64,000 nt of DNA. Source: Shinella zoogloeoides (GTDB lineage Bacteria > Pseudomonadota > Alphaproteobacteria > Rhizobiales > Rhizobiaceae). The notes beneath the pieces were generated by a model, which did not search any database, was not told the DNA's origin, and saw nothing but the letters and a program-made list of their open reading frames with translations. The stretch is from contig NZ_CP132312.1 of the NCBI RefSeq assembly GCF_030733845.1, forward strand, positions 448,501 through 512,500. The letters run 5' to 3'. Of the stretch, positions 7,123 through 54,102 are shown piece after piece (position 1 is the first letter of the stretch; each line of letters begins with the position of its first letter). Position numbers and translations under genes: made by a program.

Positions 7123-7707
7123 TCAGTCGAGGATCGCCATCTGCAGCTCGGCTTCACGCCCGAGCGTCTTCATCCATTCCGTGAACTTCGGTTGGCTCTG
7201 TATCTGGCGGCCATAGTGGCGCGCGAGCGAAGCCGTGAGGTCGCCCTTGCGGCCGAGTTGCTCGTCGGCAAAGCCGACCATCTGCGAGTTGGGCCAGGCC
7301 TGCGGGCGGATGGCGACGAGGCGCTCGAAGAGGCTTTCAGCGGCCTCGTCCGGGTTGGCCTGCGCCATCAAGGTCAGCATGGCGGCGGTCGAGCGCGAGA
7401 TTCCCATATGGCAATGAACGAGCAGGTGGCTTTGCGCCTGCTTGTCCCGCTGCGCCAGGAAATCCGTGCCGAAATTGAGGATCGCGGCGACATGATCCGG
7501 CTGGGGCATCACGCGCTCCGGCGCGGCGGCGATGATGTCGTGGAAGCGCAGCGTCGTGCGGTGATGCTCGCCATAGGTGGAAAAGGCCTCCAGCTCGGGA
7601 AGATCGGGATCGACGATGGACAGGACGTGCGTGACGCTTCGGCCGCGCTGGCCGGGCAGCTCCTCGATCCCACAGACCGTCAGCACTGGAGAGAAAACCA
7701 TGTCCAT
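7123..7707 (-). CDS. Tyrosine / dual-specificity protein phosphatase-like protein
   Basis: 194 residues from ATG 7707, with AAGGA 7 bases upstream; a second ATG two codons in is possible. Residues 98-106 read HCHMGISRS, the Cys-x5-Arg signature of protein tyrosine phosphatases (C99, R105). Asp57 in RFHDI is a candidate general acid. It starts 23 bases after the RpiR regulator's stop and is probably co-transcribed with it. A phosphatase beside a sugar-phosphate-type regulator fits the phosphate-handling theme, though the substrate could be a protein, a lipid or a small molecule. Confidence 0.85.
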   Translation of the reverse strand: MDMVFSPVLTVCGIEELPGQRGRSVTHVLSIVDPDLPELEAFSTYGEHHRTTLRFHDIIAAAPERVMPQPDHVAAILNFGTDFLAQRDKQAQSHLLVHCHMGISRSTAAMLTLMAQANPDEAAESLFERLVAIRPQAWPNSQMVGFADEQLGRKGDLTASLARHYGRQIQSQPKFTEWMKTLGREAELQMAILD

Positions 7708-7730
7708 GTCCGTATCCTTGTCAGTTCCAT

Positions 7731-8519
7731 TCACGAATTGTCGGTGTCGCATTTGCGCGCGAGCAGCGCGAAGAGCACGTCGAGCATAACATACATCGGT
7801 GCGCGGCCCGTCGGCACGATGAGGGGATGGCCGGAGGCGCGGTAGGCGTTGAGATTGATGTTCTCGTCGGCGAGCGAAGCGACGACGGAACCGCCGGGCG
7901 CGATGGATAGAATGCGCGCGCCGGCCTTCCGGGCGATCTCCATATTGGCGATCAGGTAGCTGGTGCGGCCGGAGAAGGAGAGCACGAACAGCACGTCCCT
8001 GGCGGTGAGGCGCGGGGCGGAGACCATTTGCAGGGTGGGATCCGCATAGGCGACGCTGGCCATGCCGAGCGAGGCGAGGCGGTGCTGCGCCTCGCTGGCG
8101 AGAAAGCCGGAGCCGCCATAGCCGTAGACGTCGATGCGCCGGGCATCGGCGAGGAGATCGACGGCGCGGCGCAGCGATTCGAGGTCGAGGTCGAGCCGGG
8201 CTTCGCGCAGGGCCTCGGTGGCGCGGTTGAAGATGTCGTCGACGAGGCCGGTGAAGGGGTCGTCTCCGTTTTCCGCCGGGCTCACCGGCGCCTGGCGCAC
8301 GGCCAGTTGCTGGGCGAGCTTGAGGCGGAAATCGGGAAAGCCGTCGCAATCGAGCCGCCGGCAGAACCGGATGACCGACGGCTCGCTGACCTTGGCGATC
8401 CGCGCGGCATCGGTGATCGACCAGGTGATGGCCGTGCTCGGCGTGTCGAGGATCGCTTCGGCGATCCTGCGCTCGGCGGGCGTGAACTGCGACAGGGACT
8501 GCCTGATCAGGTCGAGCAT
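7731..8519 (-). CDS. MurR/RpiR-family transcriptional regulator
   Basis: 262 residues. The N-terminal ~75 residues are the RpiR helix-turn-helix (ERRIAEAIL, SEPSVIRFCRRL). Residues ~115-250 form a SIS (sugar isomerase) domain with a VYGYGGSG loop and a LSFSGRTS loop that in this family bind phosphosugars. It diverges from a second RpiR gene, with ~284 bases between them, and is followed by the phosphatase gene. The likely ligand is a sugar phosphate, and the likely targets are the divergent importer genes. Confidence 0.92.
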   Translation of the reverse strand: MLDLIRQSLSQFTPAERRIAEAILDTPSTAITWSITDAARIAKVSEPSVIRFCRRLDCDGFPDFRLKLAQQLAVRQAPVSPAENGDDPFTGLVDDIFNRATEALREARLDLDLESLRRAVDLLADARRIDVYGYGGSGFLASEAQHRLASLGMASVAYADPTLQMVSAPRLTARDVLFVLSFSGRTSYLIANMEIARKAGARILSIAPGGSVVASLADENINLNAYRASGHPLIVPTGRAPMYVMLDVLFALLARKCDTDNS

Positions 8520-8554
8520 GAAACCCTTCGTTCCGGCATCAAAGGCCTCGGTGG

Positions 8555-8663
8555 CTGAAGATCACAATATATCCCGTCGGCCATCTGCTTCGACGGGCAG
8601 GACGATTGATAGTCAAAACCGGCCTGCGCCACAACGAACCATTTCACCGAACCGGGCGTATCG
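8555..8663 (-). pseudogene. Decayed 3' end of an inositol-monophosphatase-family gene
   Basis: This stretch aligns by eye with the 3' end of the intact gene at 20938-21795 (region 20931-21037), with about 15 differences and one 2-base indel over ~110 bases. On the minus strand it still reads VVAQAGFDYQSSC and MADG, as in the intact protein. The indel moves the original stop out of frame, and nothing upstream completes a gene. It is probably a relic of a duplication or of an earlier arrangement in which a phosphatase gene lay beside this importer. Confidence 0.75.
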
Positions 8664-8704
8664 TCTTGGGCCCGCCGGGGTGTCCTCCTTCACCTGCGAC
8701 GGCA

Positions 8705-8765
8705 TGCAAATCCTTGCAGAAGTTTGCAAGGAATCTTGCGTTCATTGTATTGACTGCAAGGAGGT
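8705..8765. promoter_or_regulatory. Cluster of TGCAAG/CTTGCA half-sites upstream of the RpiR-importer operon
   Basis: CTTGCA (8713-8718) and TGCAAG (8725-8730) form a perfect dyad with a 6-base spacer. A second pair, CTTGCG (8735-8740) and TGCAAG (8755-8760), and flanking TGCAAA and TTTGC sequences follow within 60 bases. All lie 40-100 bases before the second RpiR gene. This looks like a multi-site operator for one of the two RpiR proteins. Confidence 0.55.
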
Positions 8766-8803
8766 TTGCCAGAACAATCCCTGCAAAGAAACGTGTGAGC
8801 GCC

Positions 8804-9640
8804 ATGACCATCCTCGATCGCATCAAGGCCAAGTCCCGGAAGCTGACGGAGGCCGACCAGAAGCTGATTTCGGCCATGCTGGAGAACCGCGCGGAGGCGG
8901 CGTTCCTGTCCGGGCCGCAGCTTTCCCAGCGCGCCAGCGTGCATGAGGCGACGGCGACGCGGCTGGCGCAGAAGCTCGGCTACAAGGGCTTTCCGGACCT
9001 GCGCGCCGAATTGCAGCGCGAGGTGCTGCTGGATCAGGACGCGGCGGGCCGCATGCGCCGCTCCGTCGCCAAAGTGGAGCATGGCGACTACCTGACCGAC
9101 CTCATCGCCGCCGAGATCGCCGCGCTGGAAACGCTCGCTCGCTCGGTGCCGCAGGCCGATATCGACCGCGCCGCCGACATGATCTTCGAGGCCCGCCGCG
9201 TCTTCGTCTTCGGCCAGGGCCATGCCCAGTCCGTCGCCGGTTTCCTGCAACGCCGGCTCGACCGGTTCGGCATGACGACGATCGCGTTGGCGGGCCGCGG
9301 CCGCGACATCGCCGAGCGGCTGGTCGGCATCGACGGCAACGACGTGGTGGTGGCGCTCGCCTTCCGCAAGCAGCCGCAGAGCTACGCGCCGCTGATGCGC
9401 CATGCCGCCGGCGTCGGCGCACGCACCATCCTCGTTTCCGACCTTGCCGGGCCGCTGATGGAGCCGCCGGCGGACCTCATGCTGTCCGCCCCGCGCGGGC
9501 GCTCGGGCAGCGAGTTCCAGACCCCGACCATCCCCTTTGCCATCGTCAACGGCATCGTGCTGACGATCGCGGGGCGGCATGAGCGCGAGGTCATCGGAAG
9601 ACTGGAGAAGCTGTCGGAGCTGTTCAACGACTTCGACTGA
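8804..9640 (+). CDS. MurR/RpiR-family transcriptional regulator heading the importer operon
   Basis: 278 residues from ATG 8804; the open frame extends upstream but through the operator-like repeats, so I reject earlier starts. An N-terminal RpiR helix-turn-helix (~1-75, with SVHEATATRLAQKL as recognition region) precedes a SIS domain (~110-250) containing VFVFGQGHAQS and VVVALAFRKQ. It lacks the usual Ser-rich FSG loop, so ligand recognition may differ from the paralogue at 7731-8519. Its stop is 25 bases before the binding-protein gene, so it is the first gene of a five-gene operon and probably its local regulator. Confidence 0.9.
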   Translation: MTILDRIKAKSRKLTEADQKLISAMLENRAEAAFLSGPQLSQRASVHEATATRLAQKLGYKGFPDLRAELQREVLLDQDAAGRMRRSVAKVEHGDYLTDLIAAEIAALETLARSVPQADIDRAADMIFEARRVFVFGQGHAQSVAGFLQRRLDRFGMTTIALAGRGRDIAERLVGIDGNDVVVALAFRKQPQSYAPLMRHAAGVGARTILVSDLAGPLMEPPADLMLSAPRGRSGSEFQTPTIPFAIVNGIVLTIAGRHEREVIGRLEKLSELFNDFD

Positions 9641-9665
9641 AAAAGGGAAAGTGGAGGAGGAAACC

Positions 9666-10787
9666 ATGCTGAAACATCTGTACGCATCCGCCCTTGCGGC
9701 CTGTCTCGTCCTGCCGGCCGCCGCGCTGGCGGACGATCTTGACAGCCTGACGCCGGAACAATTGCTGCCGATCGCCCAGAAGGAGGGCAGCGTCACGGTC
9801 TTTTCGCTGTCGAGCCGCATCGCCAAGATCGAGAAGGCCTTCGAGGACGCCTATCCGGGCATCGACCTCATCGGCGTCGACATGAGCTCGACCAAGCAGA
9901 TCGCCCGCGTGGAGGCCGAGCAGCAGGCGGGCGTTCACGCCGTCGACGTGCTCTACATCGCCGATACGCCCATCGTCTTCTCCAAGCTGGTGGAGGAAAA
10001 GCGCGTCGTGAACTATGTGCCGCCGCGCATCGCCGGCGAGCTGGAGGACCGCTTCAAGACGCCGCTCCTGACGCAGCGTCTTTCCACCAAAGTCCTGATG
10101 TACAATGAGAAGGCCTTCCCCGACGGCTCGCCCGTCACCAATCTCTGGCAGCTCACCGAGCCGGAATGGCAGGGCCGCGTGCTGATGGTCGATCCGAGCC
10201 AGCGCGGCGAACTGCTCGATCTCCTCACCGAGATTTCGCTGCACCCGGACGAGATGGCCGCGGCCTACAAGGCCAAGTACGGCAAGGATATCGAAGTCGA
10301 GGAAGGCCTCGAGGGCGCCGGGGAACAGTTCATCAAGGCGCTCTTCGAGAACGACCTGATCCTGCTGCCCAACAGCGACGTGCTCAACAAGTCGATCGGC
10401 GACGTCGACGCCAAGAACCCGCCCGTCGGTTTCGGCACCTATTCGGACCGTCGCGACAACGAGGAGGAAGGCTGGGCGCTGCAGGTCGCCAACAATGTCG
10501 AGCCGGCCAACGGCATCCTCTTCCCGGCTGTGCTGACCATTGCCGACAAGGCGCCGCATCCGGCCGCAGCGCGCCTGCTCATCGACTTCATGTTCGGCGA
10601 CAATTCCCCGACCGGCGGGCCGGGCTTCGCGCCCTTCAACGTGCCCGGCGACTATGCGGTGCGCAAGTCCATCGCCGACCATCCCGACTCCGTCAAGCTC
10701 GGCGACCTGAAGGCCTGGACCATCGATCCGGCGAAAACCGCCGCCGCCCGCGGCCGTATCGCCGATCTCATCATCACGCTCCAGTAA
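9666..10787 (+). CDS. ABC transporter periplasmic binding protein, 'Fe3+-type' fold
   Basis: 373 residues from ATG 9666 with a strong GGAGGAGG site. The signal peptide (LVLPAAALA) is cleaved near residue 22. The mature protein is an extracellular solute-binding protein of the ferric/thiamine/phosphonate superfamily, with motifs such as LMYNEKAF and NVPGDYAV. I see no adjacent Tyr-Tyr pair, so ferric binding is doubtful. It lacks the C-x6-C pair of the other three such proteins in this window and is more distant from them. Its neighbours are RpiR upstream and a permease, ATPase and histidine phosphatase downstream, which suggests an organic, perhaps phosphorylated, ligand. Confidence 0.88.
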   Translation: MLKHLYASALAACLVLPAAALADDLDSLTPEQLLPIAQKEGSVTVFSLSSRIAKIEKAFEDAYPGIDLIGVDMSSTKQIARVEAEQQAGVHAVDVLYIADTPIVFSKLVEEKRVVNYVPPRIAGELEDRFKTPLLTQRLSTKVLMYNEKAFPDGSPVTNLWQLTEPEWQGRVLMVDPSQRGELLDLLTEISLHPDEMAAAYKAKYGKDIEVEEGLEGAGEQFIKALFENDLILLPNSDVLNKSIGDVDAKNPPVGFGTYSDRRDNEEEGWALQVANNVEPANGILFPAVLTIADKAPHPAAARLLIDFMFGDNSPTGGPGFAPFNVPGDYAVRKSIADHPDSVKLGDLKAWTIDPAKTAAARGRIADLIITLQ

Positions 10788-10794
10788 TGGGGCG

Positions 10795-10825
10795 GCCTGC
10801 CGGCATGGAGAACGTGCCGGCAGGC
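10795..10825 (+). terminator. Intercistronic hairpin between binding protein and permease
   Basis: A perfect 11-bp inverted repeat GCCTGCCGGCA / TGCCGGCAGGC with a 9-base loop, starting 8 bases after the binding-protein stop. There is no T-run, so it is more likely an mRNA 3'-end stabiliser or partial terminator that raises binding-protein levels over permease. Confidence 0.6.
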
Positions 10826-10839
10826 TTGGAGGAGTTTTC

Positions 10840-12585
10840 ATGACATCGTCTTCGCTTTCCGTGCCATCGGGCAGCCGGCTGCTCCGATCGGGCTTTCTAT
10901 TGCCGGCCGTGCTCGTCGTCATCGTCGCCATCCTGGTGGTCGCGCCGCTCGCCCGCATCCTGCTCTCCACGCTGACGCCCGAGGGCATCGAGGCGTGGAA
11001 GGCGGTGCTCGCCAGCCGTCTCTCTGCCAATCTGTGGTGGTGGCCGCTGTTCAACACCATGGTCCTCGGCTTCTCGGTGGCCAGCGGCTGCCTGCTGATC
11101 GGCGGCTTCCTCGCCTGGCTCGTCGTTTTGACGGACGTGCCCGGCCGCCGCTTCCTCGGCCTCATGGCGACGCTGCCCTACATGATCCCGAGCTTTGCCG
11201 CCGCGCTCGCCTGGGGCACGCTGTTCCGCAATTCCCGCCTCGGCGGCTCTGCGGGCTTCTTCGAGACCAACGGCCTTGTCATTCCAGACTGGCTCGCCTG
11301 GGGCCTGATCCCGACCGCCGTCGTGCTCATCGCGCACTACTATTCGCTCGCCTATACGATCATCGCCGCCGCGCTCGGCTCGGTCGGGGCCGATCTGGTC
11401 GAGGCCGGGCAGATGGCCGGCGCCAAGCGCCCCCGCATCTTCTTCGGCATCATCCTGCCGGTCGTTACCCCTGCGCTGGTCGCTGCCGCCTCGCTCACCT
11501 TTGCCGGTGCCGTCGCCAATTTCGCAGCGCCCGCCTTGCTCGGCCTGCCGGTGCGCATGCAGACGCTCTCCACCCGCCTCTTCGGCATGATCGAGACCGG
11601 CCAGAACGAGCGCGGCTTCGTGCTGGCCCTGCTGCTGATCGCCGTATCAGCCCTGTTCCTCTTCTTTTCCGACCGGCTTGTTTCCGGGCGCAAGGCCTTC
11701 ATCACCGTCACCGGCAAGGGCGGGCGCACCAAGCGCTTTCCGCTCGGCGCCTGGCGCTGGCCGCTCTTTGCGCTCGCCGTCCTCATCGGACTGCTGACAA
11801 CGGTCGTGCCGGTGCTGGTGCTGGCGGCATCGAGCCTTGCACCGCAGAGCGGGGCGCTGTTCTCCAACTGGACGCTGCATTTCTGGATCGGCGAGGGCGG
11901 CGGCCAGATGGCCCAAGGCCAGGCCGGCATCTTCCGCAATCCCGTGCTGATCGATGCGCTGTGGAACACCATCCGCCTCGGCCTCGTCGTCGCCTTCACG
12001 ACGATGCTGCTCGGCCTCGCGCTCGCCTATACCATCGTGCAGCGCAAGGGCAGCCTGCTTGCCACGCTGCTCAGCCAGCTCGCCTTCCTGCCGCTGCTTG
12101 TGCCGAGCATCGCGTTTGCCGCCGCCTATATCGCGCTGTTTGGCGCGCCCATCGGCCCGCTGCCCTCGCTCTACGGCACGTTCGCGCTGCTGGTTATCGC
12201 GGCTTCCGCGCACAACCTTCCCTTTGCCGTGCAGTCCGGCCGCTCCGTGCTCGGCCAGATCTCGGCCGATATCGAAGAGAGCGCGCGGCTGACCGGGGCG
12301 AGCCTCGTGCGACGCCTCTTCGCGATCGTCTTCCCGCTGGCGATCCGCGGCCTCTTTGCCGGCGCCATCCTCGTCTTCGTCAAGATGGTGCGCGACCTCT
12401 CGCTGGTCGTGCTCCTCTTCACGGCCACCTCGCCGGTGCTCTCCATGGTCGCCTATCGCTATGCGTCGGAAGGCTTCATGCAGTTCGCCAACGCCATCAC
12501 CCTCGTCATCCTCGTGGTCTGCCTTGCGGCGTCGTTCCTCGCCCATAGCCTGCAGAACCGCGTCCAGAAATGGAAAGAGTCATGA
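10840..12585 (+). CDS. ABC transporter permease, fused two-domain (Fe3+-type)
   Basis: 581 residues from ATG 10840 with a GGAGGAG site. About twelve hydrophobic helices are arranged as two tandem binding-protein-dependent permease domains. Each carries an EAA-type cytoplasmic loop that contacts the ATPase (VEAGQMAGAKRP in the first half, IEESARLTGASL in the second). The fused layout is that of the AfuB/FbpB family. Its stop overlaps the ATPase start as ATGA. It is the inner-membrane channel of the importer encoded with the genes on either side. Confidence 0.92.
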   Translation: MTSSSLSVPSGSRLLRSGFLLPAVLVVIVAILVVAPLARILLSTLTPEGIEAWKAVLASRLSANLWWWPLFNTMVLGFSVASGCLLIGGFLAWLVVLTDVPGRRFLGLMATLPYMIPSFAAALAWGTLFRNSRLGGSAGFFETNGLVIPDWLAWGLIPTAVVLIAHYYSLAYTIIAAALGSVGADLVEAGQMAGAKRPRIFFGIILPVVTPALVAAASLTFAGAVANFAAPALLGLPVRMQTLSTRLFGMIETGQNERGFVLALLLIAVSALFLFFSDRLVSGRKAFITVTGKGGRTKRFPLGAWRWPLFALAVLIGLLTTVVPVLVLAASSLAPQSGALFSNWTLHFWIGEGGGQMAQGQAGIFRNPVLIDALWNTIRLGLVVAFTTMLLGLALAYTIVQRKGSLLATLLSQLAFLPLLVPSIAFAAAYIALFGAPIGPLPSLYGTFALLVIAASAHNLPFAVQSGRSVLGQISADIEESARLTGASLVRRLFAIVFPLAIRGLFAGAILVFVKMVRDLSLVVLLFTATSPVLSMVAYRYASEGFMQFANAITLVILVVCLAASFLAHSLQNRVQKWKES

Positions 12586-13682
12586 ACGCGCTAGCCTCCG
12601 GGGCAGCGGATGCCATCAAGATCCGCAATCTCGTCAAACGTTTCGGCGCCTTCACCGCGGTGAAGGACATCGACCTCTCCGTTCCCGCCGGGGCGTTCCT
12701 CGTGCTCGTCGGTCCGTCCGGCTGCGGCAAGTCGACCCTGCTGCGCATGCTGGCCGGCCTCGAAAGCCCGAGCGAGGGGGAAATCGCCTTTGTCGGGCAA
12801 ACCGTGTCCAGCGGGGCGGGCGGCGTCATCGCCGATGCCGGCCGCAGGAATGCCGGCCTCGTCTTCCAGAGCTATGCGCTCTGGCCGCACATGACAGTCG
12901 CCGGCAACATCGCCTGGCCGCTGAAAGTGGCGAAGTGGCCGCGGGAAAAACGCGAGAAGCGGGTGAAGGAAGTGCTGGCCTTTCTCAGCATCGACGCCCT
13001 TGCCGAGCGCTATCCGGCGGAAATCTCCGGCGGCCAGCAGCAGCGCGTGGCGATCGCCCGCACCATCGCGCCCGAGCCGAGCATCCTGCTCTTCGACGAG
13101 CCGCTATCCAACCTCGATGCGAAACTGCGCATCGAGATGCGCAGCGAGCTGATGCGCATCCACCGGGCGACCGGGGCGACTTCGGTCTATGTCACGCACG
13201 ATCAGGTCGAGGCGATGACCATGGCGACCCATGTCGCCGTGCTCAACAACGGCCGCGTCGAGCAGTTCGGCAAGCCCATCGATCTGCTGCGCAATCCCGA
13301 GACGACCTTCGTCGCCACCTTCCTCGGCACGCCGCCGGCGAACCTCCTGCCGGCCCGCCGGTCGGGCGAAAACCTCGTCTTCGGCGAGACGGCGCTTGCG
13401 CCGGCGGCCATGGCCGCGAACCGCGACGAGGTTCAGCTCCTCTACCGTGCCGAGGACGTGCGCGTCGGTGCGGTCGCGGGTGCCCCGTCGCTGACCGCGC
13501 GGTTCGCCGAGGCGGCGCCGATCGCCGGGCGCACCATGGTGACCGCCATGATCGGGGACCTGCGCGTCACCGGCATGGCCGGCGGCTATTTCACGGCGAC
13601 GCCCGGCGAGCCGATAAGCCTCTCGTTCATTCGCACACCCGATGCGGTCTTCGCGACCACCGGAGAAAGGATACATCAATGA
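12582..13682 (+). CDS. ABC transporter ATP-binding protein
   Basis: 366 residues from ATG 12582, which overlaps the permease stop (ATGA); an ATG four codons earlier is possible. Walker A GPSGCGKST, ABC signature SGGQQQRVA and Walker B ILLFDEPLSNLD are all intact. The C-terminal ~120 residues are the regulatory TOBE-like region. The Q-loop reads VFQSYALWPH. Its stop overlaps the following histidine phosphatase start (ATGA), which ties the phosphatase to the transporter. Confidence 0.93.
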   Translation: MNALASGAADAIKIRNLVKRFGAFTAVKDIDLSVPAGAFLVLVGPSGCGKSTLLRMLAGLESPSEGEIAFVGQTVSSGAGGVIADAGRRNAGLVFQSYALWPHMTVAGNIAWPLKVAKWPREKREKRVKEVLAFLSIDALAERYPAEISGGQQQRVAIARTIAPEPSILLFDEPLSNLDAKLRIEMRSELMRIHRATGATSVYVTHDQVEAMTMATHVAVLNNGRVEQFGKPIDLLRNPETTFVATFLGTPPANLLPARRSGENLVFGETALAPAAMAANRDEVQLLYRAEDVRVGAVAGAPSLTARFAEAAPIAGRTMVTAMIGDLRVTGMAGGYFTATPGEPISLSFIRTPDAVFATTGERIHQ

Positions 13683-14284
13683 GGCTGATCCTCATGCGTC
13701 ACGGCGAAACGGAATGGAACGCCGAACAGCGGTTGCAGGGCCAGGACAACTCGCTGCTCTCCGAGCGCGGCGTCGCCCAGGTCAAGCGCTTCCGTCCCTA
13801 TGCCAAGGCGTTGCAGCCAGCCCGCATCATCGCATCGGATCTTGGCCGCACCCGGCAGACGGTCGCGCTGATCGGCCACCCGGATGCGCCCTCCGACGAG
13901 CGGTTCCGCGAGCTGGACATGGGTGAATGGACCGGCCGGCGCAAGCCGGACCTCATTGCGGAGCAACCGGAGGAATATACCGCCTGGCGGGCGGGAACGT
14001 TCACCCCGGACCGCGGCGAGACCTGGGGCGCCTTCCGCACCCGCGTCGCCGAAGGCGTGCGTGACTGGATGGCCTGCACGGAAGGGGACCTGCTCGTCGT
14101 TGCCCACGGCGGCGTCATCCGTGCCGCATGCCACGAATTCCTCGACCTGCCGCCCTCACGCGTCGTCCCGGTCACGCCGGGAACCGCGACCATCCTGCAT
14201 TTTCCGAAACGGGACGGACGCATCGCGCAACTGGAAGGCTACAACATCGGCGCCGTCGCGCCCGATGTGTCGGTCGCCGACTGA
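13679..14284 (+). CDS. Histidine phosphatase superfamily protein (phosphoglycerate-mutase-like)
   Basis: 201 residues from ATG 13679. RHG at 7-9 supplies the phosphorylated His8. Arg58, Glu78 (RELDMGEW) and His143 (VAHGG) complete the usual catalytic set, so it should be an active phosphomonoesterase. It is cytoplasmic, with no signal peptide. The 4-base overlap with the ATPase gene implies co-translation. Its place in an RpiR-ABC operon suggests it removes phosphate from an imported compound or its product. A mutase or protein-phosphatase role cannot be excluded. Confidence 0.9.
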   Translation: MRLILMRHGETEWNAEQRLQGQDNSLLSERGVAQVKRFRPYAKALQPARIIASDLGRTRQTVALIGHPDAPSDERFRELDMGEWTGRRKPDLIAEQPEEYTAWRAGTFTPDRGETWGAFRTRVAEGVRDWMACTEGDLLVVAHGGVIRAACHEFLDLPPSRVVPVTPGTATILHFPKRDGRIAQLEGYNIGAVAPDVSVAD

Positions 14285-16539: not shown

Positions 16540-16967
16540 GACGCGGCCTCTCCTTCCCGCGCCGGTGCGGCCGTAAGGAAACGATCGATGTTGAGGCCGT
16601 AGGCGAGCACATGTTCCGGCTGCCACTTGGCGAGCAGCAGGTCCCAGCGGATGCGCAGATAGCCCGGCCAGTCGAGCGCGTTCACATGAGCGGCCTGCCG
16701 CTCGAGGGAGGGAAAGTATTCGAACGCCGCGCCCGCCGCCCGGAAATGAAGGAACTCCGGTATGTCGGTGACATAGACGATCCTGTCGACGCGGGCGAAG
16801 GTCGCGCCCACTTTCGCGACGATCTCGTCGTGCCCTTCGCGCGGGACGGTGAAGAGTGTCACCATGACGATGCGCTTGCGCCCCTGCGAGCGGTAGATAT
16901 GAAGCTCGTTGTCCTCGTCGGGCGTCGGTGGCGGCTGGCGGCGGAGGAATCGCAGAAGATCAGCCAT
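16530..16967 (-). CDS. Small protein of unknown function in the glycosyltransferase operon
   Basis: 145 residues from ATG 16967, chosen because GGGAG lies 7 bases upstream; a GTG two codons earlier sits too close to it. It overlaps the upstream gene by 8 bases and the downstream gene by 10. A Rossmann-like alternation appears (RIVMVTLFTVP, RIVYVTDIPEF), with a WPGYLRIRWDLLLAKWQPEH stretch near the end. It could be a lone N-terminal half of a glycosyltransferase fold. I do not recognise the family. Confidence 0.72.
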   Translation of the reverse strand: MADLLRFLRRQPPPTPDEDNELHIYRSQGRKRIVMVTLFTVPREGHDEIVAKVGATFARVDRIVYVTDIPEFLHFRAAGAAFEYFPSLERQAAHVNALDWPGYLRIRWDLLLAKWQPEHVLAYGLNIDRFLTAAPAREGEAASWR

Positions 16968-46806: not shown

Positions 46807-47543
46807 GAGACAAGCTCGCCGTCGTCCGTGCTCAGCACATAGCCCTTGCCGCGGCGCGTCAGGATATGGCGCGGCAGGTCCGGGTTGCGCTCGATCTTGC
46901 GCCGGAGCCGCAGCACCAGAACATCGACATTGCGGTCGATATAGCGGTCGCTTTCCGCCCCCAGCCGGTCGAGGATCTGGGCGCGGCTGACCGGCACGTT
47001 CGGCGCTTCGGCAAGGATTTCGAGCAGGGCGAATTCGGCGCTCGTCAGCGATTTCGCGGGGTCGGATAGGCAGATGGCACGGCGGTTCTTGAGGTCGATG
47101 GACCAGTCGCCCAGCCGCAGCGATGCCGGTTCGTGCTCCCGCTCGGCCTCCCGTTCGGGTTTCAGCGTCGGGATCGTGCGGCGCAGGACGGCCTTGATGC
47201 GCGCCGTCAGCTCGATCGGCTCGAAGGGTTTGACGACATAGTCGTCCGCTGCCGTTTCGAGGCCGAGCACCCGGTCCGCCGCACTTCCCGCCGCCGTCAC
47301 CATCACGATGCCGATATTGGTTTGCGCCCGCAGGCGCTGGGCAAACGTACGGCCGGAGGCGCCGGGCAGGTTATGGTCGACGAGCACGAGATGCACCGTC
47401 TCGTGTGCCAGGACGCCCGCGGCCGCTTCCGCCGATGGCGCGGTCAGCGGCGTCCAGCCCTCGGCCTCCACGAGATCGGAAATCAGCTCGGCCATGTCCG
47501 GATCGTCCTCGACGATCAGAATCCGTATCCTCTCATTCAGCAT
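46803..47543 (-). CDS. OmpR-family response regulator
   Basis: 246 residues from ATG 47543 (GGGAGGAC upstream). Receiver domain with D13/D14, phospho-acceptor D56 (LVLVDHNLPG), T83 and K105. A winged-helix DNA-binding domain occupies ~140-240 (LTSAEFALLEILA, DRYIDRNVDVLVLRLRRKIE). It is co-transcribed with the kinase. The intergenic region upstream carries GTAAC direct repeats of the kind OmpR-type regulators bind, so it should control the divergent importer genes. Confidence 0.94.
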   Translation of the reverse strand: MLNERIRILIVEDDPDMAELISDLVEAEGWTPLTAPSAEAAAGVLAHETVHLVLVDHNLPGASGRTFAQRLRAQTNIGIVMVTAAGSAADRVLGLETAADDYVVKPFEPIELTARIKAVLRRTIPTLKPEREAEREHEPASLRLGDWSIDLKNRRAICLSDPAKSLTSAEFALLEILAEAPNVPVSRAQILDRLGAESDRYIDRNVDVLVLRLRRKIERNPDLPRHILTRRGKGYVLSTDDGELVS

Positions 47544-47760: not shown

Positions 47761-48783
47761 GTGAAAGGCATCACCGCTATCAGCGCGGTCGCAGCCCTGT
47801 GGCTGGCGAGCGCCACGGCCGGCCTTGCGGCCCCGTCGCTCACCGTCCTGTGCGGTGTGGACGAGGCGTGGTGCGCCGCGATGAAGAAGGCCTATGAAGC
47901 CAAGACCGGCCTCGAAGTCTCGGTGACCCGCAGGAGCACCGGCGACATCCTCAACCAGATCCGCGCCGAGAAGGCGGCCCCAACGGTCGATGTCTGGTGG
48001 GGCGGGACGGGCGACACGCATCTTCAGGCCGGTTCGGAAAACCTGCTCGAACCCTATCAGCCGGCCCATGGGCGCGACATGCTGCCCTGGGCGCAGAACT
48101 TCTTCGCCATGTCCGGCGGCCGGTCGGCAGGCATCTATGCCGGCGCGCTCGGCTTTGCCTACAATGCCGACCTGCTGCGCGAATTGAAACTGCCGGCGCC
48201 GACCTGCTGGAAGGATCTGACGGACATCGCCTATCGCGGCCGTATCCAGAGCGGCAATCCAAATTCCTCGGGCACCGCCTTCACCACGCTGGCGACGCTC
48301 GTCCAGCTCTTCGGCGAAGAGGAGGCGTTCCGTTATCTCGCCGCGCTCAATCGTAATATAGAGCGCTATACGACCTCGGGCGCCGCCCCCGTCAAGGCGG
48401 CGGCGCGGGGGGAAACGTTGATCGGCATTTCGTTCATGCATGACGCCGTGACGCAGAAGCAGGCGGGCTCGCCCCTCGTCATCGTCGCGCCCTGCGAGGG
48501 CACCGGCTACGAGATCGGCGCCGTCAGCATCGTCAAGGGCGCGCGGCATATCGAGGAGGCCAAGCGGTTCGTCGATTTCGCGCTGAGCCCGGAAGGGCAG
48601 GGCACCGGTGCCCTGTCCGGCCAGAATCAGGTGCCGTCCAATGCGATGGCCACCCTGCCGCTCGCCGCCCCCGACATCTCGCTGATCAAGATGGTTGACT
48701 ACGACTTCGCCACCTTCGGCTCGCCCGAGGAACGAAGTCGGCTGCTCGAAAGGTTCGCCGCGGAGATAACCGCGACGAACTGA
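47761..48783 (+). CDS. ABC periplasmic binding protein, AfuA-like (first of two)
   Basis: 340 residues from GTG 47761 with a GGAGGAAC site. Signal peptide to about AGLA (~23). The mature start has the C-x6-C pair (LCGVDEAWC). Where ferric-binding relatives carry Tyr-Tyr it reads MHDA (H227, D228), followed by PCEGTGYE (C245, E251); Cys149 (PTCW) may pair with Cys245. It is strikingly similar to the next gene product and likewise lies before the permease. Having two binding proteins suggests different ligands, or that one serves the sensor kinase. Induction by the divergent two-component system is likely. Confidence 0.92.
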   Translation: MKGITAISAVAALWLASATAGLAAPSLTVLCGVDEAWCAAMKKAYEAKTGLEVSVTRRSTGDILNQIRAEKAAPTVDVWWGGTGDTHLQAGSENLLEPYQPAHGRDMLPWAQNFFAMSGGRSAGIYAGALGFAYNADLLRELKLPAPTCWKDLTDIAYRGRIQSGNPNSSGTAFTTLATLVQLFGEEEAFRYLAALNRNIERYTTSGAAPVKAAARGETLIGISFMHDAVTQKQAGSPLVIVAPCEGTGYEIGAVSIVKGARHIEEAKRFVDFALSPEGQGTGALSGQNQVPSNAMATLPLAAPDISLIKMVDYDFATFGSPEERSRLLERFAAEITATN

Positions 48784-48905: not shown

Positions 48906-49934
48906 ATGAAAATGAAGACCCTTTCCCTCATGCTCTTCGCAGGTACGGCGATCGGTGCGCTGCCGGCGCAGGCGGCCGGCGAGCTCAACCTCATTTGCTC
49001 GGCCGACGTCGTCATCTGCGAGCAGATGAAGGGCGACTTCGAGAAGGCGCACAGCGATATCAAGGTGAACATGGTTCGCCTGTCCTCCGGCGAGACCTAT
49101 GCCAAGGTGCGTGCCGAGGCCCGCAACCCGAAGACCGACATCTGGTGGGCCGGCACGGGCGATCCGCATCTGCAGGCGGCGTCGGAGAACCTGACGCTGG
49201 AATACAAGTCGCCGAAGCTCGACGAGCTCAACGATTGGGCCAAGAAGCAGGCGGAAAGCTCCGGCTACAAGACGGTCGGCGTCTATGCCGGCGCGCTCGG
49301 CTGGGGCTACAACACGGAAATCTTCAAGTCGAAGGGTTACAAGGAGCCCAAGTGCTGGGCCGACCTGCTGGCTCCCGAGCTGAAGGGTGAGATCCAGATC
49401 GCCAACCCGAACTCTTCGGGCACGGCCTATACGGCGCTCGCCTCCCTCGTTCAGATCATGGGCGAGGACCCGGCCTTCGACTACCTGAAGAAGCTCAATG
49501 ACAACGTCTCGCAATACACCAAGTCCGGTTCGGCGCCGGTGAAGGCCGCAGCCCGCGGCGAGACGGCGCTCGGCATCGTCTTCGTGCATGATGCGGTGGC
49601 GCAGACGTCGGAAGGTTTCCCGGTCAAGTCCATCACGCCCTGCGAAGGCACCGGCTACGAGATCGGCTCCATGTCGATCATCAAGGGTGCGCGCAATCTC
49701 GACAATGCGAAGATCTGGTACGACTGGGCGCTGACCCCGGAAGTCCAGTCGCGCATGAAGGACGCCAAGTCCTTCCAGCTCCCCTCGAACAAGAGCGCCG
49801 AAATCCCGAAGGAAGCGCCGCGCTTCGAGGACATCAAGCTGATCGACTACGACTTCAAGACCTATGGCGATCCGGCAAAGCGCAAGGAACTGCTGGAGCG
49901 CTGGGACCGCGAAGTCGGCGCCGCCGCCAACTGA
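48906..49934 (+). CDS. ABC periplasmic binding protein, AfuA-like (second of two)
   Basis: 342 residues with an AGGAGG site. Signal peptide to AQAA (~23). Same layout as its neighbour: C-x6-C (ICSADVVIC), WWAGTGDPHLQ, PNSSGTAY, FVHDA (H228, D229) and PCEGTGYE (C246, E252), with no Tyr-Tyr pair. The 122-base gap after the first binding-protein gene contains 8-bp arms CGTGAACG/CGTTCACG 39 bases apart. From memory, the hexose-phosphate-binding AfuA structure uses a His-Asp and a Glu from this region; I cannot verify that here. Paralogue of the protein at 24695-25714. Confidence 0.93.
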   Translation: MKMKTLSLMLFAGTAIGALPAQAAGELNLICSADVVICEQMKGDFEKAHSDIKVNMVRLSSGETYAKVRAEARNPKTDIWWAGTGDPHLQAASENLTLEYKSPKLDELNDWAKKQAESSGYKTVGVYAGALGWGYNTEIFKSKGYKEPKCWADLLAPELKGEIQIANPNSSGTAYTALASLVQIMGEDPAFDYLKKLNDNVSQYTKSGSAPVKAAARGETALGIVFVHDAVAQTSEGFPVKSITPCEGTGYEIGSMSIIKGARNLDNAKIWYDWALTPEVQSRMKDAKSFQLPSNKSAEIPKEAPRFEDIKLIDYDFKTYGDPAKRKELLERWDREVGAAAN

Positions 49935-49944
49935 TGTCCTGACC

Positions 49945-49973: not shown

Positions 49974-50003
49974 TCCTTACACCCAATGACAGCGAGGTCG
50001 GCC

Positions 50004-52217
50004 ATGAGACATGGCAATCGCAGGCTGGACGTCGTCCTGGTCCTGGGAGCGGTCGCATTGACGCTTCTGCCGTGGTACCGGATCGAGGGCGGCTTCTTCG
50101 GGCTAGGTTGGCTGGCCGGTTTTCCTCTTTCCGCGGAGGCCGCGCCGGGCCTCGTGCAGATTTTCGCGCATGGCCGGCTGTGGCTTGCCGGCGCGCTCGC
50201 GCTCCTTCTTCTGGCCGGTGCGGCCCGCGGCATGGCGGACCCAATGCGCCGCGGCGCCGCGCTGGCCTGGCTTGGAGCGGCCGGCGTCGCCTTCCTGACG
50301 CTTCAGGGCCTCGCCATCGGCTATACCGGCTGGACCTGGGGCGTGAGCGACAGGATGTTCGGCGCGCTCGCGGAAGGCCAGCCCTCGATGGGGGCCGGCG
50401 CGGTGCTTTGCGCCATCACCTTCGTGCTGCTCTTCGCCTTCGGCCTTGCCGAGCGCGGCGTCATGAAGGGCGATGCCTTCGTCGTCAGCGCCATATCGCT
50501 GCTCGTCTTCCTCGTCGCCGTCTTCGTTTTCTACCCGATCGGCAGCATGTTCATCGGCGCGGTGCAGGACTTCGACGGCTCATTCAATGCCGACAACTTC
50601 ATCCGCAACGTGCAGGATCCGAGCATCTGGAGCCTCAACTGCGTGATCGGCGCCGGCCGCTGCGGTGTCGCATGGCGAACGCTGTGGCTCGCCATCATGA
50701 CCGGCCTCGGCTCGACCCTGCTCGGCCTTGCCTTCGCGCTCGTCGCCACCCGCACGCGCTTTCCCTTCAAGAAGGGCCTGCGCCTCCTGACGATCCTGCC
50801 GATCATCACGCCGCCCTTCGTCATCGGCCTCGCTCTGACCTTGCTCTTCGGCCGCGCCGGCGTCGTCACGCAGGGCCTTTCCGATCTTTTCGGCATCGAG
50901 CCCGGCCGCTGGCTCTACGGCCTCACCGGCATCTGGATCGCCCAGGTGCTGTCCTTCACGCCGATCTCCTTCCTCGTGCTGATCGGTGTCGTCGAGGGCG
51001 TCAGCCCGTCGATGGAGGAGGCCTCGACCACCCTGCGCGCCGACCGCTGGCGCACCTTCCGCCGCGTCTCGCTGCCGCTGATGAAGCCGGGCCTTGCCAA
51101 TGCCTTCCTCATCGGCTTCATCGAAAGCATGGCCGACTTCGGCAATCCGCTGGTGCTCGGCGGCAGCCACGGCGTGCTCTCGACGGAGATATTCTTCGCC
51201 GTCGTCGGCTCGCAGAACGATCCTTCGCGGGCGGCGGTGCTTGCCATGGTGCTGCTCGCCTTCACGCTCTCGGCCTTCCTTGCCCAGCGCTTCTGGCTGT
51301 CGGGCAAGAACTTCGCCACCGTCACCGGCAAGGGCGACAGCGGCGCGCACATCGCGCTGCCGAAGGGGCTGTCGATCGGCGTGCACGCCGTCGTCATCCC
51401 CTGGATCCTCTTCACGCTCGTCATCTACGGCATGATCCTGATCGGCGGCTTCGTGAAGACCTGGGGCCTCGACAATTCGCTGACGCTCGACCACTACGCC
51501 AAGGCCTTCTCCGTCAGCTTCGGCGACGGCATCGCCTGGACGGGCGTCGCCTGGAACTCGTTCTGGACGACGATGGAGATTGCGCTGATCTCCGCCCCGC
51601 TGACGGCCGCCGTCGGCCTGCTCACGGCCTATATCATCGTGCGCCAGAAATTCGCCGGCAAGAACGCCTTCGAATTCGCGCTCATGATGAGCTTCGCCAT
51701 TCCCGGCACGGTCATCGGCGTCAGCTACATCATGGCCTTCAACCTGCCGCCGCTGGAAATGACCGGCTCGGCGCTGATCCTGATCGCCTGCTTCGTCTTC
51801 CGCAACATGCCGGTCGGCGTGCGCGGCGGCATCGCGGCGATGAGCCAGCTCGACAAGAGCCTGGACGAAGCCTCGCTGACGCTGAGGGCGGGCAGCTTCC
51901 GCACCATCCGCAAGGTCATCCTGCCGTTGCTGCGCCCCGCCATCACCGCCGCGCTCGTCTATTCCTTCGTGCGCGCCATCACCTCCATCAGCGCCGTCAT
52001 CTTCCTCGTCAGCGCCGAGTACAACATGGCGACCTCCTATATCGTCGGACTCGTCGAGAACGGCGAATACGGCGTGGCGATCGCCTATTCCTCCATGCTG
52101 ATCGTCGTGATGATCACCGTCATCGCCGGCTTCCAGCTTCTCGTGGGCGAGCGGCGCCTCCGGCGCGAGAACCGCGTCGCCGGCCTCACCCCCTCCCGTC
52201 AGGAGAAAACCGCATGA
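50004..52217 (+). CDS. ABC transporter permease, fused two-domain, with N-terminal membrane extension
   Basis: 737 residues from ATG 50004 (GCGAGG 6 bases upstream); an ATG six codons earlier has no site. The family core (~165-730) has two permease halves with EAA loops (MEEASTTLRADRW and LDEASLTLRAGSF). Before it are ~160 extra residues with about four more hydrophobic helices (DVVLVLGAVALTLL, LWLAGALALLLLAG and others). This makes it far longer than the 560- and 581-residue paralogues in the window. The stop overlaps the ATPase start (ATGA). The extension might interact with the sensor kinase or with the second binding protein; this is inference. Confidence 0.92.
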   Translation: MRHGNRRLDVVLVLGAVALTLLPWYRIEGGFFGLGWLAGFPLSAEAAPGLVQIFAHGRLWLAGALALLLLAGAARGMADPMRRGAALAWLGAAGVAFLTLQGLAIGYTGWTWGVSDRMFGALAEGQPSMGAGAVLCAITFVLLFAFGLAERGVMKGDAFVVSAISLLVFLVAVFVFYPIGSMFIGAVQDFDGSFNADNFIRNVQDPSIWSLNCVIGAGRCGVAWRTLWLAIMTGLGSTLLGLAFALVATRTRFPFKKGLRLLTILPIITPPFVIGLALTLLFGRAGVVTQGLSDLFGIEPGRWLYGLTGIWIAQVLSFTPISFLVLIGVVEGVSPSMEEASTTLRADRWRTFRRVSLPLMKPGLANAFLIGFIESMADFGNPLVLGGSHGVLSTEIFFAVVGSQNDPSRAAVLAMVLLAFTLSAFLAQRFWLSGKNFATVTGKGDSGAHIALPKGLSIGVHAVVIPWILFTLVIYGMILIGGFVKTWGLDNSLTLDHYAKAFSVSFGDGIAWTGVAWNSFWTTMEIALISAPLTAAVGLLTAYIIVRQKFAGKNAFEFALMMSFAIPGTVIGVSYIMAFNLPPLEMTGSALILIACFVFRNMPVGVRGGIAAMSQLDKSLDEASLTLRAGSFRTIRKVILPLLRPAITAALVYSFVRAITSISAVIFLVSAEYNMATSYIVGLVENGEYGVAIAYSSMLIVVMITVIAGFQLLVGERRLRRENRVAGLTPSRQEKTA

Positions 52218-53275
52218 TCAACCAGAAAGCCGGTTCCGTCGTCTTCGAGAACGTGAGGAAGAGCTTCGGTGCCTTCACCGCCATTCCCGACCTTTCGCTC
52301 ACCATCGAGCCCGGTACGCTCGTCACCCTGCTCGGCCCGTCCGGCTGCGGCAAGACGACGACGCTCAGGATGCTCGCCGGCCTCGAACATCCCTCGGCGG
52401 GCAGGATTCTCATCGGCGGCAAGGATGTGACGATGCTGCCGGCCAACGAGCGCGACGTCTCGATGGTCTTCCAGTCCTATGCGCTCTTCCCGCATATGAA
52501 TGCGCGCGATAATGTCGCCTATGGCCTGGAATCCTCGGGCCTTTCCAAGAAGGAAGCGCGCGAGAAGGCGGAGGAGGGGCTTGTCCTCGTCGGCCTTTCG
52601 GGCATGGGGCACCGCCTGCCGGCGGAACTCTCCGGCGGCCAGCAGCAGCGCGTTGCGGTCGCCCGCGCGCTGGTGCTGGAGCCGCAGGTGCTGCTGCTCG
52701 ACGAGCCGCTGTCGAACCTCGACGCGCGCCTGCGCCGCAAGGTGCGCACGGATATCCGCGAACTGCAGCAGCGCCTCGGCTTCACCGCCGTCTATGTCAC
52801 GCACGACCAGGACGAGGCGCTTGCCGTCTCCGACCGCATCATCGTCATGAAGGACGGCGAGGTCGCCCAGTCCGGCGCCCCGCGCGATCTCTACGAGGCG
52901 CCCGCCTCCGCCTTCATCGCCGACTTCATGGGCGAGGCGAACGTGATCGCCTGCGAGGTCGTCGGCATCGAGGACGGTGAGGCGCAGATCCGCATCGGCA
53001 CGCTGGAGCATCGCGTGCCCGCGGGCAGGGCCACACCCGGTGCGGCAAGCCTTGCCGTGCGCCCCGGCGCCATCGCTCTTTCCGAAGGGCGAGGGCAGGG
53101 ACTGGCCGGCCGCATCCTGCATTCGGCCTATCTCGGCGACCATGTCGAATACGAGGTCGAGACCGATGTCGGCACGCTCTTCGTCGTCGATCACACCATC
53201 GACCGTATTCTGCCGGCGGCGGCGGATACGTCCATCAACTTCAAGAACCGCGGCATCGCAATCATCGACAGATAG
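52214..53275 (+). CDS. ABC transporter ATP-binding protein (AfuC/PotA-like)
   Basis: 353 residues, ATGA overlap with the permease. Walker A GPSGCGKTT, signature [10 protein letters not shown], Walker B VLLLDEPLSNLD and YVTHDQDEA are intact; the C-terminal ~115 residues are a TOBE domain. Five bases separate it from the phosphatase gene, so the importer and phosphatase are one operon, as at 20938-25714. Confidence 0.93.
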   Translation: MINQKAGSVVFENVRKSFGAFTAIPDLSLTIEPGTLVTLLGPSGCGKTTTLRMLAGLEHPSAGRILIGGKDVTMLPANERDVSMVFQSYALFPHMNARDNVAYGLESSGLSKKEAREKAEEGLVLVGLSGMGHRLPAELSGGQQQRVAVARALVLEPQVLLLDEPLSNLDARLRRKVRTDIRELQQRLGFTAVYVTHDQDEALAVSDRIIVMKDGEVAQSGAPRDLYEAPASAFIADFMGEANVIACEVVGIEDGEAQIRIGTLEHRVPAGRATPGAASLAVRPGAIALSEGRGQGLAGRILHSAYLGDHVEYEVETDVGTLFVVDHTIDRILPAAADTSINFKNRGIAIIDR

Positions 53276-53280
53276 GCACC

Positions 53281-54102
53281 ATGAACATGGCAAATCCCGA
53301 CACGACCTCGCCCGAGACCTCCCTCGACACCCGCTTTGCCCTGGCGCGGGCTCTCGCGCAGGAGGCGGGGGCGATGGCGCTCGACTACTTCAACCGGCGC
53401 GATACGCTCGTCATCGAAACCAAGCGCGACATGCAGGACGTCGTCTCCATCGCTGACCGCAATGTGGAGAAGATGATCCGCGAGCGCGTCGCGGCGATGC
53501 TCCCGGAAGACGGTTTCCTCGGCGAGGAGTTCGGCCATACCGAAGGCGCTTCCGGCTATACCTGGGTGGTCGACCCCATCGACGGAACCGCGCCCTTCGT
53601 CAACGGCATGCCGACCTGGTGCGTGTCGATCGCCGTGGTGCATGGCGGCGAACCGGTGATCGGCGTCATCGGCGCGCCCTGCCAGAACGAACTCTATGCC
53701 GCGGCCCTCGGCAGGGGCGCGAAGCTCAACGGCAGGGTGCTGACGCTCGATCCGACCCGCACCATGCAGAATGCCCTCACCGGCATCGGCGCCAACAGCC
53801 ATGTCACGCCCGAGGTCGTGTCCGACATCGTCAACCGGCTGCTGCAGGCCGGCGGCAATTTCATCCGCAACGGATCCGGCGCGCTGATGCTCGCCTATGT
53901 CGCGGCGGGCCGGCTCGTCGGCTACTACGAGCCGTACATGCATGCCTGGGATTGCCTTGCCGGCTATTGCCTCGTGAAGGAGGCCGGCGGTTGGTATCAC
54001 CCGTTCCCGGTGGAGGGGGAGGGGCTTACCAAGGGCGCGCCCGTGGTCGCCGCCGGGCCCGGCGCGCGCGCCGATATCGGCAAGCTTGCGGGCGTGTGCT
54101 GA
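53281..54102 (+). CDS. Inositol-monophosphatase-family phosphatase, importer-linked
   Basis: 273 residues (ATG 53281 or 53287; both have weak ribosome sites). Family metal ligands: Glu82/83 (GEEFG), Asp98 and Asp101 (VDPIDGTAPF) and Asp224 (AWDCLAG). DGTAPF in place of the common DGTxNF suggests a substrate pocket different from inositol monophosphatase proper. It is the last gene of the two-component-linked importer operon, with a terminator after it. A role in dephosphorylating an imported phosphate ester is inferred. Confidence 0.93.
   Translation: MNMANPDTTSPETSLDTRFALARALAQEAGAMALDYFNRRDTLVIETKRDMQDVVSIADRNVEKMIRERVAAMLPEDGFLGEEFGHTEGASGYTWVVDPIDGTAPFVNGMPTWCVSIAVVHGGEPVIGVIGAPCQNELYAAALGRGAKLNGRVLTLDPTRTMQNALTGIGANSHVTPEVVSDIVNRLLQAGGNFIRNGSGALMLAYVAAGRLVGYYEPYMHAWDCLAGYCLVKEAGGWYHPFPVEGEGLTKGAPVVAAGPGARADIGKLAGVC

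Follow-up and report, generated by a model that had tools for sequence, protein, structure and literature searches.

What is the cargo of an ATP-binding cassette (ABC) importer of the so-called ferric type when its operon also encodes a phosphatase? The question is raised by a 64,000-nucleotide stretch of the Shinella zoogloeoides genome (contig NZ_CP132312.1, positions 448,501 to 512,500; hereafter, the window), where Pfam searches and translation showed three operons, each composed of one or two genes for binding proteins followed by a fused two-domain permease, an ATPase and a phosphatase. Our results suggest that each operon is probably an uptake-and-dephosphorylation module for a small phosphate ester. 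The shared gene order had been claimed in an earlier reading of the sequence alone (the original prediction), together with phosphatase junctions of 4-5 bases and a phosphatase that is a histidine phosphatase once and an inositol-monophosphatase-family enzyme twice, and our analysis bore out each of these points.

Gene families were assigned by Pfam, with several genes scanned within longer open reading frames (ORFs), and starts were taken from the translations. Operon 1, on the forward strand, begins with an RpiR-family regulator (8804-9640; HTH_6, in a longer ORF) and continues with binding protein 1 (9666-10787; SBP_bac_11, in a longer ORF), which by model and Foldseek has a type II periplasmic binding protein fold, fused two-domain permease 1 (10840-12585; two stretches of BPD_transp_1), ATPase 1 (12582-13682; ABC_tran) and HP1, a histidine phosphatase superfamily enzyme (13679-14284; His_Phos_1 at 2e-44 in a longer ORF, and motifs). 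Operon 2, on the reverse strand, comprises binding protein 2 (24695-25714), which is AfuA-like by Pfam, structure match and alignment, fused permease 2 (22895-24649; two stretches of BPD_transp_1, with the true start perhaps at 24577, as in a shorter relative), ATPase 2 with a TOBE domain (21792-22889; Pfam, in a longer ORF) and IMP2, an inositol-monophosphatase-family enzyme (20938-21795; Inositol_P at 6e-51, and motifs). Operon 3, on the forward strand, encodes two AfuA-like binding proteins, 3a (47761-48783) and 3b (48906-49934), both assigned by Pfam, structure match and pocket residues, then fused permease 3, which has an extra N-terminal membrane segment (49986-52217; Pfam, hydropathy), ATPase 3 (52214-53275; Pfam, in a longer ORF) and IMP3, a second inositol-monophosphatase-family enzyme (53281-54102; Inositol_P at 6e-55, and motifs). 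ATPase and phosphatase genes overlap by 4 bp in operon 1 (13679-13682) and in operon 2 (21792-21795), and are separated by 5 bp in operon 3 (53276-53280).

A comparison with the rest of the genome indicates that this pairing is not due to chance. The 5.18-Mb genome contains eight inositol-monophosphatase-family (PF00459) and six histidine-phosphatase (PF00300) genes, and for five of these 14 an ABC domain lies upstream on the same strand, at a distance of no more than 1.3 kb. The fifth apparent pair, msbA-dapB-gpm, has a gene between ATPase and phosphatase and was dropped as unrelated. The remaining four phosphatase genes directly follow an importer ATPase, a number reached in 0 of 20,000 random placements (largest, 3), where placement was uniform, operon structure was ignored and ABC domains were limited to the 150 with the highest scores among 265 candidates. 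The fourth genuine pair, module 4, lies outside the window on the reverse strand (L032, G000:C2:2676000-2695500, 3510-13323) and is ordered binding protein, kinase, sigma-54 regulator, binding protein, permease, ATPase and histidine phosphatase (HP4); we take its kinase and sigma-54 regulator to resemble those of the Pgt phosphoglycerate system. About nine fused-permease importers are present in this genome, four of them with a phosphatase neighbor. In Pseudochrobactrum a module-4 relative is followed by pyruvate kinase, while a relative in Aminobacter is without it. Three of 20 plasmid records with an HP4 relative were examined. On a Shinella sumterensis plasmid (L205, 7984-9660), an HP4 relative directly follows a segment that matches the module-4 ATPase over 317 of its 390 residues; the L205 region showed neither a permease nor a binding protein, insertion sequences are nearby, and the module is apparently truncated.

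For operon 3, conservation was measured by scanning species genomes with an alignment of the binding protein only, so that the phosphatase was not selected on. Among the best 80 of 577 confirmed loci, 76 had an IMP3 relative following the ATPase on the same strand. The BLAST-estimated distance between the two was <150 bases in 74 of these; in the other two (L039 and L042), HAD phosphatase genes are inserted between ATPase and IMP. The 80 loci include Rhizobiaceae, Phyllobacteriaceae, Brucellaceae, Roseobacteraceae, Paracoccaceae and Thalassospira, as well as five Pantoea/Erwinia/Enterobacter loci. In a tree of 34 IMP proteins, four enterobacterial ones nested within the Rhizobiaceae, Brucellaceae and Stappiaceae proteins, a placement suggestive of transfer of the operon as a whole. 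A permease-3 match was present in 28 of 398 genomes across the phylum, S. zoogloeoides included, and 29 phylum loci fetched outside operon 3 had either a long (16) or a short (13) permease, a grouping defined after the data were seen. An IMP gene was the neighbor, by BLAST distance, in 11 of the 16 long-permease loci (six downstream on the same strand, two convergent and three upstream). Plasmid records with an IMP3 relative were examined in 1 of 210 cases. On pSymB of S. meliloti ABS7 (L018, 4513-8940), the binding protein, permease and ATPase of an operon-3 relative are broken over several frames, perhaps by sequencing error or decay.

HP1 relatives (E ≤ 1e-28) occurred in 7 of 249 genomes of the order and 15 of 297 of the family, with the S. 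zoogloeoides genome counted in each, and all 20 genome matches outside it followed a permease and ATPase of the operon-1 type. Linkage to the phosphatase, on which the original prediction depended, is thus conserved in relatives of both operon types. Ten of the 63 plasmid records with an HP1 relative were examined as well: eight had the phosphatase directly after an importer ATPase and one, from Chelatococcus, had a gph gene in between. IMP2 relatives were rare, with 12 plasmid records at E ≤ 1e-30 and, at E ≤ 1e-50, only S. zoogloeoides itself among 385 genomes of the class; the phosphatase followed an importer ATPase in all four of the 12 plasmid loci that were examined.

The partners are also exchanged. 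In Shinella PSBB067, an importer of the operon-1 type is accompanied by both a HAD hydrolase and a phosphatase of the IMP2 type; in Chelatococcus, one of the module-4 type is accompanied by an HP1-type enzyme and by the phosphoglycolate phosphatase gph (220 bits; cut-off, 180). A Na/Pi cotransporter gene directly follows HP1 at 2 of the 10 examined plasmid loci, those of Martelella and Fuscovulum, as would be expected if phosphate is released inside the cell, and in a single case a nucleoside hydrolase follows an operon-2 relative. One AfuABC relative (L173; G082:C14:51500-66500, 2768-11351) has the order zwf-pgl-binding protein-permease-ATPase-edd, with zwf, pgl and edd each above the NCBIfam cut-off. 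The genes zwf, pgl and edd constitute the entry of glucose-6-phosphate (G6P) into the Entner-Doudoroff pathway; this importer perhaps carries 6-phosphogluconate or G6P to that pathway. Taken together, the exchange of phosphatases and the HAD, Na/Pi, zwf-pgl-edd and pyruvate kinase neighbors suggest that the cargo consists of phosphate esters, of more than one kind, rather than iron.

Among the phosphatases themselves, HP1 has the motifs RHGET/HGGV, IMP2 has GEE/DPIDGT/WDIAAG and IMP3 has GEE/DPIDGT/WDCLAG, all of which we take to be intact catalytic or metal-site motifs, and no export signal was evident by eye in any of the three. Scores with Inositol_P were 173.9 bits for IMP2 and 187.2 bits for IMP3 (cut-off, 27), but neither belongs to a named equivalog among HisN, SuhB/inositol-1-monophosphatase and CysQ, the best being HisN at 140.6 and 170.9 bits, respectively (cut-off, 275.15). 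Likewise, HP1, with its RHG and second His motif, scored 151.9 bits with His_Phos_1 (cut-off, 21.7) and 103.8 bits with its best model, cobC (cut-off, 162.9). The best plasmid matches of the window phosphatases were Shinella records and one labeled Roseateles sp. XES5, followed by other Rhizobiaceae. IMP2 and IMP3 fell into separate supported clades, in a tree with a long-branch warning for the Shinella PSBB067 protein among others, and HP1 is 29% identical to HP4. The simplest reading of these relationships is that phosphatases joined the importers in several separate recruitments.

Since the histidine phosphatase superfamily includes phosphoglycerate mutases, HP1 might instead be a mutase whose substrate is phosphoglycerate or another imported phospho-acid. 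Module-4 relatives, with regulators that we presume to be Pgt-like, would fit this idea in that they carry a histidine phosphatase plus pyruvate kinase, or gph. However, the highest scores of HP1, HP4 and their relatives were with the alpha-ribazole phosphatase model, although they did not reach its cut-off; mutase models gave lower scores, and the Na/Pi cotransporter neighbors fit phosphate release. We therefore regard a mutase as unlikely.

Which esters are imported may be approached through the binding proteins. The best solved relatives of the operon-2 and operon-3 proteins were the hexose-phosphate binders AfuA and VcA0625, with ferric binders far behind; E-values against AfuA (4r72) were 3e-91 for 3b, 2e-83 for 3a and 3e-46 for binding protein 2. 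AfuA contacts the sugar ring through H205, D206 and E229 and the phosphate through T150 (PMC4546632, in part). The ring residues are kept in 3b as H228, D229 and E252, and likewise in 3a, and T150 is kept in both. We placed the ligand residues described for AfuA and for the pyridoxal-phosphate binder P5PA (PMC4546632 and PMC8427247, both in part) by alignment, giving a table of nine pocket positions in 138 proteins, from which second binding proteins of <40% identity and the short loci L134-L155 (most of them present via wide regions) were left out. The signature SYGSTSHDE was found in 87 of 138 proteins and AYGSTSHDE in 17, and the two cover all 80 first-listed binding proteins of the 80 operon-3 loci (65 and 15, respectively) plus 10 of 12 short-form loci. 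Proteins of the 3a type (23 from the 80 loci, and that of the window) are T....HDE-like, with H, D and E kept. Given that all three ring residues are retained in 3a and 3b, operon 3 most likely binds the ligands of AfuA, i.e., hexose or heptose phosphates resembling G6P, fructose-6-phosphate (F6P) or sedoheptulose-7-phosphate (S7P).

Binding protein 2 differs, in that H205 is replaced by Q and S37 by A while D206 and E229 are kept. Its signature, ASSSTSQDE, is shared with two other operon-2 proteins, and a fourth, more distant one has AASSTSHGE. Operon 2 should, on these residues, bind a related but different ester. Replacement of the histidine is also seen in the edd-coupled L173 protein (ASGSTSFDE, with phenylalanine) and, again by Q, in L159, a long-permease locus with no detected phosphatase.

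Another candidate ligand for operon 3, pyridoxal phosphate, was suggested because P5PA (6wce) ranked within the first three structure matches of each of binding proteins 2, 3a and 3b; in that case import would resemble that of P5PAB and the phosphatase would produce pyridoxal. However, two P5PA-like proteins in the table read TYLSTSHGT and TYLSTSHAA, and the P5PA pocket, characterized by its L105 position and by the absence of AfuA's D206 and E229, is not matched by 3a and 3b, which keep G129, D229 and E252; nor is the pocket of binding protein 2 P5PA-like. P5PA has, moreover, been reported only in Pasteurellaceae (PMC8427247, in part). We rejected pyridoxal phosphate for operon 3 on the pocket residues and consider it extremely improbable.

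The annotation of these systems as ferric or metal-chelate importers, with the phosphatase as a bystander, deserves the same scrutiny. Automatic names of relatives say iron transport, and the model of binding protein 1 (mean pLDDT, 85.7) was nearest in Foldseek to the metal-citrate binder MctA (E = 2.5e-16), followed, down to ~1e-13, by IbpS, the G6P binder VcA0625, the ferric binder HitA, AfuA and P5PA. A profile comparison of binding protein 1 with the AfuA type aligned only 129 columns, at 66% probability. Nevertheless, for operons 2 and 3 we rejected ferric import, AfuA being a far better match than the ferric binders and the AfuA ligand residues being kept in operon 3, and the phosphatase linkage is conserved even as phosphatase types are exchanged. 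As a general explanation, iron import is thus very unlikely. The claim that organophosphates rather than iron are imported therefore stood for operons 2 and 3, whereas the operon-1 model remained closest to a metal-citrate binder. Of the further claim that each module has its own ligand, the altered pocket of operon 2 fits, whereas for operon 3 the predicted ligands are the hexose and heptose phosphates that AfuA binds; cyclitol or glycerophospho ligands, also proposed, received no specific support.

Several observations weigh against the view that import and dephosphorylation belong together. IMP was absent after the ATPase in four of the 80 operon-3 relatives (L040, L075, L099 and L113), one of which, L075, has a convergent HAD-type gene adjoining the ATPase in its place, and most of the 80 loci come from Rhizobiaceae and are close relatives, so they do not amount to 80 independent observations. 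Among the long-permease loci, IMP was 3 kb away in L157 and edd took its place in L173, and no match to a seed phosphatase was found in three of the 16 (L158-L160). The same was true of all 12 short-permease loci examined in wide regions by tblastn with the seed proteins, a search that could miss an unrelated phosphatase (L153, at a contig end, was left out). By pocket, these 12 comprise 11 AfuA-like loci and one P5PA-like locus, and 10 of them share the signature of 3b; L161, the one scanned with Pfam for neighbors, has UhpABC-like genes upstream. AfuA-type ligands can thus apparently be used without a phosphatase, and since coupled and uncoupled proteins share a pocket, the presence of a phosphatase at operon 3 is no sign of a new ligand. 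One of the 10 HP1 plasmid loci has the phosphatase beside a DASS symporter and a LysR gene rather than an ABC importer; this locus is on plasmid pmk2 of Klebsiella sp. PL-2018 (L021, 6378-10418), where the HP1 relative is 50% identical and an IS6 element is near. Finally, Pho-box-like sites, scored with a consensus, numbered three versus 4.1 expected, with none in front of the operons. Control by a Pho box was accordingly rejected.

These relatives lend weight to another explanation, in which imported sugar phosphates mainly enter central metabolism directly and the phosphatase, instead of being the principal route, serves as a safety valve against sugar-phosphate stress. Sugar phosphates are sensed by RpiR regulators, the short-permease relatives have the same pocket with no phosphatase detected, the edd-coupled relative would feed the Entner-Doudoroff pathway directly, and pyruvate kinase stands beside a module-4 relative. 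In Actinobacillus, AfuABC supports growth on G6P and F6P (PMC4546632, in part). Nonetheless, the near-invariant close coupling and the recruitment of several phosphatase families suggest that dephosphorylation is a main step, and the Na/Pi cotransporter beside 2 of 10 examined operon-1-type loci suggests release of Pi. A safety valve is therefore a possible but rather doubtful account, and dephosphorylation of the imported ester as the principal route is preferred.

How the modules are controlled differs among them. Operon 3 is divergent from genes for an OmpR-type response regulator, RR3 (46803-47543, reverse strand; Pfam, in a longer ORF, with the start placed by eye), and a sensor histidine kinase, HK3 (44686-46806, reverse strand; Pfam), which by hydropathy and a low-confidence model has a helical segment of ~240 residues between two membrane helices. 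In the 80 operon-3 loci, HK3 and a 3a protein occurred together in 23, neither was present in the other 57 and one was never found without the other, although four of the 57 (L061, L078, L102 and L103) were too short upstream to judge the two-component system. In Staphylococcus aureus, HptA is a secreted G6P-binding protein that signals through HptS (PMC8774646, in part). Co-occurrence of 3a with HK3/RR3, together with this analogy, suggests that 3a may be an HptA-like sensor partner of HK3 and 3b the cargo binder of the importer. The HK3 model (pTM, 0.34) showed a helical domain between the membrane helices, and a Foldseek search with it gave no useful match, the kinase core being dominant. 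An HK3 alignment was tried with 16 of the 23 loci, leaving out L056 (extra stop) and L042 (near-duplicate). A promoter scan of the operon-3 region yielded nothing informative.

The original prediction had assigned RpiR proteins or a two-component system as regulators, which holds for operon 1 and for operon 3 with HK3/RR3, but operon 2 has no adjoining regulator. A second RpiR gene is located divergently upstream of operon 1 (7731-8519, reverse strand; HTH_6 and SIS), and relatives of it were present in four of four examined operon-2-type plasmid loci, directly after the imp2-type phosphatase in L019, L020 and L191 and upstream of the operon in L192. Thus, the regulator type that accompanies operon 2 elsewhere sits here beside operon 1, 12.4 kb from operon 2. 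Upstream of operon 2, a putative operator/promoter (25808-25849) consists of two GGAARCTACATTT half-sites flanking a TTGACA box. The GGAARCTACATTT half-site has four matches in the window at ≤2 mismatches versus 0.5 expected, the two perfect ones being those upstream of operon 2, and ATGTAG-like elements precede operon 2 in L019 and L020 and, more weakly, in L191.

The second RpiR gene is accompanied by a gene resembling protein-tyrosine/dual-specificity phosphatases (7123-7734, reverse strand), which has an HCxxxxxRS motif and scores below the cut-off of Pfam DSPc; a relative (78%) is convergent and follows a histidine phosphatase in Shinella WSC3-e. Other genes of the window include a heparinase II/III-like protein between operons 1 and 2 (16960-18684, reverse strand), a caspase-domain protein with Sel1 repeats adjoining operon 2 (18950-20833, forward strand) and a 1033-residue ORF with phosphotransferase (APH), M23 peptidase and class III aminotransferase domains (27062-30163, reverse strand).

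From the gene order, conservation, catalytic motifs, pocket residues and co-occurrence observed here, we infer the following scheme of ligands, enzyme substrates, sensor role, regulation and physiological purpose. A periplasmic binding protein of the AfuA/Fbp superfamily would capture a small phosphate ester, which the fused permease and ATPase would bring intact into the cytoplasm, where the co-translated phosphatase would split it into its free organic part and inorganic phosphate. For operon 3 the cargo would most likely be hexose or heptose phosphates, whose presence 3a would probably report to HK3/RR3, as HptA does to HptS. The ester carried by operon 2 would be related but differ in its organic moiety, that of operon 1 would be yet another phosphorylated compound, and regulators of the RpiR type would govern both operons.

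Several known systems come close to this scheme. AccA of the acc operon of Agrobacterium Ti plasmids represents another binding-protein class, and UgpBAEC has other binding-protein and permease families. The hexose/heptose-phosphate importers AfuABC (Actinobacillus) and VcA0625 (Vibrio) are alike in binding-protein sequence, pocket residues, fused permease and ATPase; they differ in that the 12 short-permease relatives have no seed phosphatase and, at L161, UhpABC-like genes upstream. P5PAB, the pyridoxal-phosphate importer, likewise has an AfuA-like binding protein and a permease, with a different pocket signature. The acc operon also joins ABC import of a sugar phosphoester (AccABCDE) to cytoplasmic enzymes, namely the phosphodiesterase AccF and AccG, a putative phosphatase (PMC4526662, in part), although its importer subunits are different and the phosphodiesterase step comes first. 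Similarly, the glycerol-3-phosphate importer UgpBAEC is encoded in one locus with a phosphate-releasing enzyme, the cytoplasmic phosphodiesterase UgpQ (PMC10715179, in part), but is activated by PhoB, whereas the operons of the window have no Pho-box-like site in front. HptASR of S. aureus is comparable in its secreted G6P-binding sensor, histidine kinase and response regulator (PMC8774646, in part); however, it controls UhpT and not an ABC importer, and the proposed role of 3a derives solely from co-occurrence.

ABC import coupled to a phosphate-releasing enzyme has precedents in acc and Ugp. Neither of the two AfuA-family papers (PMC4546632 and PMC8427247) uses the word "phosphatase" anywhere in its main text, and no description of the coupling of AfuABC to a phosphatase was found in the literature searched (titles and the beginnings of abstracts, with most subscription journals outside its scope). 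Within that literature, the original claim that the coupling is little described apparently holds.

It seems to us evenly balanced whether these modules exemplify a general class in alphaproteobacteria, in which AfuABC/Fbp-type importers for different phosphate esters, mis-annotated as iron transporters, would have repeatedly and independently gained phosphatases of unrelated superfamilies (inositol monophosphatase, histidine phosphatase, HAD and possibly tyrosine phosphatase), and in which a duplicated binding protein would now serve as an HptA-like sensor. Alongside the periplasmic phosphatases already known, such a class would give cells an intracellular, Pho-box-independent way of obtaining organic phosphorus and carbon. 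Use of an imported ester for phosphorus has precedent in Salmonella, which can live on UhpT-imported G6P or F6P as sole phosphorus source (PMC10715179, in part). Phosphorus gain is one candidate purpose of dephosphorylation; protection from sugar-phosphate stress, or use of an ester other than the glycolytic one, are others, and the existence of phosphatase-coupled, edd-coupled and uncoupled relatives makes the question of why an ester should be dephosphorylated after import directly testable. If the proposal is true, a neighboring phosphatase would be a cheap genomic marker of importer cargo, many "iron(III) transport" genes of rhizobia and their relatives may in fact encode importers of phosphorylated organic compounds, and annotation, inventories of iron uptake and models of the soil phosphorus cycle would change.

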